This document shows, in pieces, positions 55-45,337 of a DNA stretch of 45,542 bases. The DNA is from Oscillospiraceae bacterium (lineage in GTDB: Bacteria; Bacillota; Clostridia; Oscillospirales; Oscillospiraceae). How positions within the stretch are numbered: the first letter of the stretch is position 1; each line of letters opens with the position of its first letter. A model generated the notes under the pieces. That model did no database searches. It saw only the letters and a program-made list of their open reading frames with translations, and was not told the DNA's origin. Both the position numbers and the translations under genes were made by a program. The stretch lies in the NCBI GenBank assembly GCA_017430985.1, contig JAFRLZ010000027.1, positions 1 through 45,542 of the forward strand. Reading direction: 5' to 3'.

Positions 55-140
55 GCCGGTGTGATGGAATGGTAGACGTGACGGACTCAAAATCCGTTGG
101 TGGCGACACCGTGTGGGTTCGAGTCCCACCACCGGCACCA
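55..140 (+). tRNA. tRNA-Leu (anticodon CAA)
   Basis: Type II tRNA with the CCA end encoded. The acceptor stem is GCCGGTG (55-61) with CACCGGC (130-136), the discriminator is A137 and CCA is 138-140. The anticodon stem ACGGA/TCCGT encloses the loop CTCAAAA, which puts CAA at 88-90 and reads UUG leucine codons. The long variable arm folds as GGTG-GCGA-CACC, and the T-arm is GTGGG-TTCGAGT-CCCAC. Several spurious reading frames cross it on both strands. The downstream 290 bp hold a second copy of its 3' 25 bases. Confidence 0.97.
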
Positions 141-31610: not shown

Positions 31611-31703
31611 GCAGAAGTACCCAAGAGGCCGAAGGGGCTCCCCTGCTAAGGGAGTAGGGTGTCTAAAAACGCCGCGAGGGTTCAAATCCCTCCTTCTGCG
31701 CCA
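31611..31703 (+). tRNA. tRNA-Ser (anticodon GCT)
   Basis: Type II tRNA with encoded CCA. Acceptor stem GCAGAAG (31611-31617) pairs with CTTCTGC (31693-31699), discriminator G31700, CCA 31701-31703. Anticodon stem CTCCC/GGGAG encloses CTGCTAA, placing GCT at 31645-31647 for AGC/AGU codons. A long variable arm (about 31655-31674) and T-arm GAGGG-TTCAAAT-CCCTC are present. The last 25 bases occur again at 31907-31931. Confidence 0.97.
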
Positions 31704-31743
31704 TGAAAACAACCCCCATCCGACGGATGGGGGTTGTTTTCAT
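31704..31743 (+). terminator. Terminator after tRNA-Ser
   Basis: TGAAAACAACCCCCATCC-GAC-GGATGGGGGTTGTTTTCA, an 18-bp perfect stem starting on the base after CCA. The 3' side holds TTGTTTT. Confidence 0.85.
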
Positions 31744-31750
31744 ATGGTGA

Positions 31751-31931
31751 AGCGGAGGGGGGTTGAACGCCGAGCGCCCACCGGGCGCGAGGGAATTGCG
31801 GGCTCCCGCCGCCGGCGGCGGATGCAGGGAGACAGCAATTACCGCAGCGGTCGAAAAACCGGAGGGAAAGCGTAAGCCCGAACGGTTTTTCGGGCACCGC
31901 AAGGCGGATCAAATCCCTCCTTCTGCGCTAT
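31751..31931 (+). repeat. tRNA-Ser tail element: antisense-like T-arm, hairpins, and 3' tRNA copy
   Basis: Positions 31907-31931 copy the tRNA-Ser 3' end (31679-31703) at 23 of 25 bases, ending CTA instead of CCA. GGAGGG...TTGAAC at 31754-31768 approximates the reverse complement of the T-arm and can pair with TCAAATCCCTCC of the copy. Inner stems: GCGCCC-ACC-GGGCGC (about 31774-31788), AATTGC/GCAATT (31794-31799 with 31835-31840), and a perfect 10-bp stem CGAAAAACCG/CGGTTTTTCG (31852-31861 with 31883-31892). No protein is supported. Same architecture as the tRNA-Leu locus. Confidence 0.7.
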
Positions 31932-32174
31932 TAAAGAAACTTCTTTTGTTCAACGGGACAGGGGACAATTTTGTCGCCTTCACTTCTTGAAAAGCACGAA
32001 AGCATGTGCCAGCACGTTTTTTCAAAAAAGAAAGCCAGATCTGATATCCGACGTTTTCAGACGGAGAATAATACTGCAGGTAGAGAAAAAACCATCATTT
32101 TAGTACGAGCGGTGTGTGTACATCGCTCTATTTTCGTTGTACAATAAAAGCACAAAGCAAGGGAGGCCGAGAGC
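31932..32174. other. Intergenic before the XRE-TldD-TldE operon
   Basis: Holds one arm of the GGGACAGGGGAC repeat (31955-31966), an AT-rich stretch, and an inverted repeat GAGCG...CGCTC (about 32107-32128). A TACAAT -10-like box lies at 32140-32145 with no good -35. I see no real gene here. Confidence 0.45.
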
Positions 32175-45054: not shown

Positions 45055-45109
45055 GGTATTTCTCCTTTTGCATCGAATCAGCGACGGGAAAGCCTCTGTT
45101 ACAGTGTTG

Positions 45110-45240
45110 ATTCTGCTTTTTGCTCTCTCCCTGACGGCCCGCTGCGCCCCGCGCATCCGCGGAGCTTGGCCGTGGCGGCATCCGCCGAGTCTTTCGACAA
45201 CCGCCAACCCTCGTCGACCGTATCGGTCCTGGCGCTAACA
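45110..45240 (-). ncRNA. glmS ribozyme (glucosamine-6-phosphate-responsive self-cleaving RNA)
   Basis: Minus strand. The cleavage context TTA^GCGCC places the cut between A45236 and G45235. Conserved core follows: GGTCGACGAGGG (about 45219-45208), GTCGAAAGACTCGGCGGATGCC (about 45198-45177) with the GGCGG/CCGCC pairing of P2.1, then a P3-like stem ACGGCC/GGGCCGT, and the purine-rich AGAGCAAAAAGCAGAA at the 3' edge. All are hallmarks of the Bacillus glmS ribozyme. It sits 56 bases before nagB rather than glmS. Cleavage with glucosamine-6-phosphate would destabilise the nagB-acyltransferase-glmM message. Confidence 0.95.
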
Positions 45241-45337
45241 GCTTCCCCCAAGCCTCCTTCACGGGAACACTGTTTTACTGTGCGGCAGCACGGGCAGGCG
45301 GCGCGCATTTTGCGCAAGGCTTCCCAATGCTACAACA
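45241..45337 (-). promoter_or_regulatory. 5' leader upstream of the glmS ribozyme
   Basis: About 97 transcribed bases precede the cleavage site. AAGCCT/AGGCTT (near 45324-45318 and 45256-45251) can pair, enclosing TTGCGC...GCGCGC. No coding region is supported. It would be removed upon ribozyme cleavage. Confidence 0.5.

Follow-up and report, generated by a model that had tools for sequence, protein, structure and literature searches.

The DNA analysed here, referred to as the window, is a stretch of 45,542 nucleotides from an Oscillospiraceae bacterium (GenBank assembly GCA_017430985.1, contig JAFRLZ010000027.1), designated contig C35 of its draft genome G000 (1.81 Mb in 93 contigs, 80.9% complete). 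A tRNA-Ser(GCT) gene, recognised by ARAGORN and by Rfam model RF00005, occupies positions 31611-31703 of the plus strand and is followed on the same strand by a repeat-like unit, the whole locus spanning 31611-31958. Immediately 3′ of the gene an inverted-repeat search located a terminator-type hairpin, T1 (31703-31743), with perfect arms of 20 nt, the left one A-rich and the right one T-rich. Next comes an antisense copy of the tRNA 3′ tail, running from the CCA end to the T-loop (31745-31768) and identical, ungapped, in 16/24 positions to the reverse complement of the last 24 tRNA bases; it forms the 5′ strand of a predicted stem, P1. The interior comprises a small GC hairpin predicted by folding (31774-31788, GCGCCC/GGGCGC) within a CCGAGCG..CGAGGG motif, and two hairpins of what we call a family-2 core: hairpin A (31794-31840; fold and copy comparison), with the base AATTGC..GCAATT and arms that vary among copies, and hairpin B (31842-31907, CCGCAGCGGTCGAAAAACCG..CGGTTTTTCGGGCACCGCAAGGCGG; fold and repeats). 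The 3′ strand of P1 is a sense copy of the tRNA-Ser tail that starts in the T-loop (31909-31930); 20 consecutive bases (31909-31928) are identical to the tRNA and CTA replaces CCA. The repeat can be followed beyond the tail, with 86% identity between 31906-31940 and 31679-31713. Sequence T2 (31930-31958), judged by eye to be the start of the former terminator region of tRNA-Ser, completes the locus. In the predicted fold the antisense segment pairs with the tail copy, the unit having a z-score of -4.36 and none of 200 shuffles being equally stable. The original prediction, made from the sequence alone, had described a 23/25 copy of the tRNA-Ser 3′ end at 31907-31931, an upstream approximation of the antisense T-arm and a perfect 10-bp stem (31852-31861/31883-31892); all were found as claimed, the stem lying within hairpin B.

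The second RNA gene of the window with such a unit is tRNA-Leu(CAA) (55-140, plus strand, ARAGORN). Its unit, also on the plus strand, is preceded by a hairpin with perfect 23-nt arms (277-325) and followed by a terminator-type hairpin (426-467), both found by the inverted-repeat search. It matches R1, a covariance model of the core of family-1a units, at 328-420 with 110.7 bits, being itself among the 20 sequences used to build R1, and contains the antisense T-arm of tRNA-Leu as the 5′ strand of P1 (332-344, 13/13) and a tail copy from T-loop to CCA (409-430, 22/22); the z-score of its predicted fold is -8.87. The inner sequences of the Ser and Leu units differ, as had been noted originally, the former having a family-2 and the latter a family-1 core. 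Behind the Leu locus, positions 563-621 hold an additional partial unit without a tail copy, in which GGTTCGGATTTGGATGGCCCC and GGGACTCGAACGGGAG repeat pieces at 255-275 and 332-347. Near the other end of the window, on the minus strand, lies a glmS ribozyme (RF00234, 56 bits, 45076-45247).

All units that were read out have the same order of elements: tRNA ending in CCA, hairpin T1, antisense segment, core, tail copy and next hairpin. The tail copy runs from T-loop to CCA and the unit is protein-free; the copy starts at position -22, in the T-loop, in 31/51 units and reaches the CCA end in 34/51. Family-1 units measure 133-157 bp in 25 of 26 cases, their cores having three helices besides P1. 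Family-2 cores are a dispersed repeat, whose copies in the own genome also occur away from tRNAs, two of them in tandem. With a copy score of at least 18 as threshold, copies were found behind tRNAs of 23 anticodons, at 82/183 distinct tRNA loci of a set biased by the many loci fetched for their units, and two or more copies were present at 12 of these 82.

For a survey of the own genome, 31 tRNA matches were reduced to 29 loci with at least 100 bases downstream, and other tRNA genes were masked. Nine of the 29 (Arg-ACG, Thr-GGT, Gln-CTG, Pro-CGG, Glu-TTC, Leu-CAA, Ser-TGA, Val-CAC and Ser-GCT) carry a copy of their own tail within 600 bp downstream with scores of 20-29; the remaining 20 score at most 11, so that the distribution is bimodal. 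Upstream of the genes, none of 27 tRNAs had an own-tail match scoring 15 or more, which rules out chance similarity. In a first version of the test, with tRNA genes unmasked, tails compared with the regions downstream of other-anticodon tRNAs (174 pairs) gave a 99th percentile of 14.3 and a maximum of 28. The Arg-CCG gene is followed by an 18/18 antisense segment with an only partial tail, and the tmRNA gene on contig C69 (locus L210) by a unit with a 22/22 tail. The observation at tRNA-Ser is thus one case of a large, regular system, with units following tmRNA and tRNAs of many types, both in this genome and in related ones. The suspicion that two loci 31 kb apart reflected a system rather than chance was borne out, and the possibility that no other tRNA locus in the clade would show copies did not come true. 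Contigs break at tRNA-Leu and tRNA-Arg loci (the ends of C67 and C93 of G000 and the window start), C67 terminating one base past a tRNA-Leu copy; units thus break contigs at tRNA genes, and draft assemblies may undercount them.

Model R1 matched 61/101 genomes of the genus at E 0.01, with no match in 40/101. This count replaces an earlier 76/101 for family 1; that figure and a count of 63/101 were set aside, as they include genomes matching by the tRNA tail alone, and a recount within the 63/101 table left 44/101 genomes with a best E below 1e-10. Across the family, matches were obtained in 48/300 genomes and 28/106 genera at E 1e-4, a lower bound because only 14 candidates per genome were scored. 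Among 108 R1 matches examined, 77 had their own 22-nt tail (score of at least 15) within 480 bases upstream, and an RNA gene could be assigned to 66 of these, tmRNA by a sequence motif. At 80 mnmE loci of relatives, most of them labelled Oscillospiraceae, Clostridiales or Ruminococcaceae, there was no R1 match; the closest mnmE protein among named genomes, from an uncultured Clostridia bacterium, is 84% identical.

Cores are shared between units of different RNA genes. In an analysis of 100 labelled units (about 18 of them labelled by hand according to the tail), the closest core from another genome belonged to another RNA type for about 75% and to the same type for 24.7%, compared with 8.1% after shuffling; among cores behind other RNA types, the closest one came from the same genome in 13.0%, compared with 2.4% after shuffling. 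Genome G111 has near-identical cores behind Gln, Tyr, Pro-CGG and Pro-GGG, and in G183 one helix is common to the Leu, Arg, Gln and Lys units and another to the Ser-GGA, tmRNA and Pro-TGG units. Cores therefore move from one RNA type to another while showing some preference for their own.

The arms, in turn, follow the local RNA. In 47 of 50 units (51 found, minus a chance match at L004) the sense tail copy is strictly closer to its own RNA than to any RNA with another anticodon, so that copies do not fit unrelated tRNAs equally well and a generic T-arm similarity is ruled out. Of the three exceptions, one has copied a tRNA segment that falls outside the 26-nt comparison; the other two lie behind a tRNA-Ser-TGA 3′ half and tie with tRNA-Ser-TGA. 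The antisense arm is less specific, ranking its own RNA first in 21/50 units with ties allowed and strictly first in 11 (median rank 2). In an alignment of 20 family-1a units the stems covary with RNA identity, a possibility raised with the first observation: the most variable P1 column pair, 9-86, is UA in 8, CG in 5, GC in 5 and AU in 2 units, hence paired in 20/20, and 64 double-change cells were observed against 16.2 after shuffling, with 98.7% paired and G-U in one cell. G-U accounts for 25/3313 standard pairs (0.75%) over 113 distinct model matches, in a model-made alignment that contains a few weak opposite-strand matches; in the tRNAs of the same loci it accounts for 29/710 acceptor and 58/499 T-stem pairs. 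Free-energy folds gave about 5-6% G-U in units and in T1 hairpins alike, units being not lower; because such folds add G-U pairs, the comparison of consensus pairs alone is informative here. Nearly all changes in the stems are double Watson-Crick changes, and this pattern, nearly devoid of G-U, suits pairing or correction at the level of DNA.

Such tailoring extends beyond RNA genes. Of 95 loci orthologous to a methyltransferase gene on contig C41 of the own genome, 30 were fetched, and some genomes have a family-2 unit at the stop codon of this gene. By eye, the 5′ arm of its first hairpin consists of the last codons and the stop and the 3′ arm of their reverse complement, for example GAAAGCTGA with TCAGCTTTC and GAAAGATGA with TCATCTTTC, and the unit is absent at some loci, e.g. 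L294 and L301. Among species the arms change with the last codons and stop (G000:C41:47922-48023 and L286-L315), and some loci hold tandem copies. Elsewhere in the own genome, two tandem family-2 units stand right after a gene end (G000:C2:6270-6486), each starting with a AATTGTGACCG copy.

The point of insertion could be read from a comparison of Ser-GCT loci. Twenty were examined; eight carry a copy and 12, mnmE-linked, do not, one of the latter having only 18 bases downstream. In the unit-free locus L081 the sequence TCAAAGAAACCTCTTTTGTCTACCA lies directly 3′ of the tRNA, and the same sequence follows the last tail copy in L042 and L043; the unit therefore separates the tRNA from its older terminator. 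By eye, T2 of the window resembles the sequence at the empty site and that 3′ of the L042 and L043 tail copies. A direct repeat of the RNA 3′ end is thus found at both ends of the insertion, in the own-tail copies and by reference to L081. Units also accumulate in tandem arrays, such as three at the Leu gene of L151, the first two identical. L043 has two units ahead of the older terminator, the distal tail copy being the more decayed, and among 43 copies starting near the T-loop proximal ones score higher (mean 20.3, n = 30) than distal ones (18.8, n = 13; one-sided p 0.038, not corrected for shared ancestry). A direct duplication of tail plus terminator was detected in 19/75 units above the 99% null value of 18, 15 of them above the null maximum of 26. 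The duplicated block starts exactly at both CCA ends in 16 of the 19 and covers the terminator; it extends towards the antisense segment in L327 and L334, and in L273 it is identical in 39/39 nt. In the other 56/75 units T1 does not resemble the post-tail sequence, though tails are often exact; fresh duplications are hence a minority, and dissimilar T1 hairpins beside exact tails fit a T1 brought along by the element from another allele.

On balance we lean towards the view that these units are a family of non-coding, non-autonomous mobile DNA cassettes inserting at the 3′ ends of tRNA and tmRNA genes. It is quite probable that they are mobile or recombining cassettes of some form; one driven by an enzyme is put forward tentatively, and one driven by homology and template switching is possible, if doubtful. 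Strand exchange within the T-loop, a known integrase subsite (PMC4383910, PMC3146451), would place the junction where it is seen. The incoming element would supply the RNA gene with a replacement tail and terminator while pushing the old ones downstream, the gene staying in working order. With the antisense arm and the tail forming P1, one DNA strand could fold into a duplex mimicking the end of the T-arm, by analogy with a folded attC site. The cassette may be moved in trans by an integrase of the T-loop type, or simply by recombination between the tail repeats, and template switching at hairpins during DNA synthesis could keep the arms complementary and adjust them to a new RNA. Neither an excised form nor movement was seen.

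Searches for a mobility enzyme covered Y1 transposases, integron integrases, reverse transcriptases, IS110 and tyrosine recombinases, and none of these was shared by all the unit-rich genomes tested. Integron integrase IntI (TIGR02249) was above the cut-off in 0/9 such genomes, matches below it occurring in 8/9 and in all 14 controls. The IS110/IS1111 DEDD recombinase (PF02371) was likewise found in 0/9 and reverse transcriptase RVT_1 in only 5/9, being absent from G000, G077, G025 and G018; the own genome, 81% complete, has no match to the Y1-type transposase (PF01797). Tyrosine recombinases were present in 9 of 10 genomes searched, the exception being G111, which is 95% complete and has nine model matches. 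The missing common enzyme and the case of G111 make a resident tyrosine recombinase less likely; they favour a helper that came and went, a serine recombinase, or homology and template switching on their own. When the loci that had been fetched were scanned by motif for a parent element, integrases turned up near two units, both in islands with a different junction. The units had no phage match, the Leu unit no match in plasmids, and one exact 18-base pattern none in viral contigs. By these tests the unit belongs neither to the integrons nor to the IS110 elements, and is no RAYT/REP pair or known Rfam RNA.

The lack of a shared enzyme also agrees with an explanation that dispenses with a dedicated mobile element, namely template switching and slippage during replication. 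Terminator hairpins near tRNA ends would make the polymerase fold back, copy the tail in antisense and then return to sense; arrays would grow by slippage between tail repeats, quasipalindrome correction would keep the stems perfect, and tRNA alleles would carry units between species by ordinary recombination. Template switching can create and maintain hairpins and is a route to double changes (PMC8794818), which accords with the near absence of G-U among the double Watson-Crick changes; in L042 the T1 hairpin continues unbroken into a segment exactly antisense to the final 14 bases of the tail, and hairpin arms track the end of a protein gene as well. Local copying does not, however, produce homologous cores behind different RNAs in 28/106 genera, and in young-looking insertions such as that of L273 it is the antisense that is imperfect and the tail and terminator that are perfect. 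We regard template switching without an element as unlikely.

It is improbable that the unit acts as an RNA or terminator module, in which a read-through transcript of P1 and core would modulate 3′ processing, termination or turnover of the tRNA or tmRNA, for example as a decoy acceptor/T-arm. Such a role would account for the conserved, covarying structure and for the many tail copies that extend to CCA, but T1 lies upstream of P1 and core, so that the structure would be transcribed only by read-through, and the G-U rate of the units is far below that of tRNA stems. The distribution is patchy too, both among genomes of the genus (61/101) and within a single one (9/29 tRNAs), and at gathering score Rfam returned only tRNA and glmS in the window and only tRNA at six unit loci, a search of the two window loci in E-value mode adding nothing over gathering besides tRNA.

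Decay of ordinary integrative islands or prophages to attR scars, their content lost, is very improbable: tRNA 3′ ends are usual integration sites where 3′ fragments are left behind (PMC4383910, PMC9897764) and integrase-bearing islands do adjoin some units, but these islands start in the anticodon region, not the T-loop (L235, L220, L265), and independent decay would not yield a core of fixed size with a tRNA-matched antisense behind many RNAs. In L235, L265, L162 and L220 units stand behind tRNA 3′ ends or 3′ halves without a 5′ half; L235 and L265 have integrase genes upstream, and L162, by eye, the apparent terminal part of a serine recombinase gene. It seems that islands entered these tRNAs and displaced older units. 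DNA-level targeting of att scars, considered for loci where tRNA 3′-half fragments are followed by units (L155, L161, L162, L220, L235 and L265), was abandoned because islands entering the tRNA upstream of older units explain the fragments.

Several known systems resemble the proposed cassettes in part. REP/BIME, ERIC and BOX repeats are short, non-coding, palindromic and dispersed. The units are similarly short and palindromic, and the family-2 core also occurs away from tRNAs, but unlike those repeats they are placed precisely behind RNA genes, have tRNA-specific arms and come with no RAYT-type Y1 in the own genome. In Escherichia coli the 178-bp tyrT repeats, or rtT, stand in tandem downstream of a tRNA gene and each holds a copy of its 3′ end; to our knowledge they are confined to a single locus and no core is shared between different tRNAs. 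Dehalococcoides islands at ssrA insert in the T-loop with a 20-bp repeat of the RNA 3′ end (PMC3146451), and share with the units this insertion point, a direct repeat of about 20 bp and tandem accumulation behind one RNA gene; the islands, however, are kilobases long and have a serine recombinase module (PMC3146451), whereas the units are about 150 bp, non-coding, and have a tRNA-matched antisense and a conserved core. Integron cassette arrays are also tandem, each unit ending in its insertion site, and attC is likewise a palindromic site whose structure is kept while its sequence varies (PMC2727003), comparable to the palindromic, structure-conserved P1-core-P1′ of the units; the site of the units, 93 nt, is within the attC range of 57-142 (PMC2727003). 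Unlike integrons, the unit-rich genomes have no IntI above cut-off, the units have no cargo gene, their junction is the tRNA T-loop and their arm sequence follows the tRNA; R boxes of the GTT/AAC type were not noticed. No description of such units was found in the titles and abstracts listed by searches of the open-licence literature.

With some hesitation we propose that the cassettes may be a new kind of mobile DNA, minimal and gene-free, using tRNA and tmRNA genes as integrons use attI, with arms re-tailored to the tRNA entered and the host always given a fresh tail and terminator, so that insertion would cost little; arrays would then be a dated record of insertions, and in family 2 this machinery may also act on protein genes, at their stop codons. 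Bacterial mobile DNA lands most often at the 3′ ends of tRNA genes, and the elements known to do so are kilobases long and bear integrases (PMC4383910). If units of about 150 bp, gene-free and common in a gut and rumen family, use the same ends, they would show how little DNA suffices, one core serving many tRNAs through changed arms. Young and old units adjoin and their direct repeats are readable, so that the mechanism is open to test by strain comparison or a plasmid assay. A further hairpin, CGTCGTCGCAAGC..ATATCGCTTGCGACGAC, recurs at RNA ends, after the tail copy in L027, L066, L165 and L166 and after the tRNA in L011, and is perhaps another repeat family.
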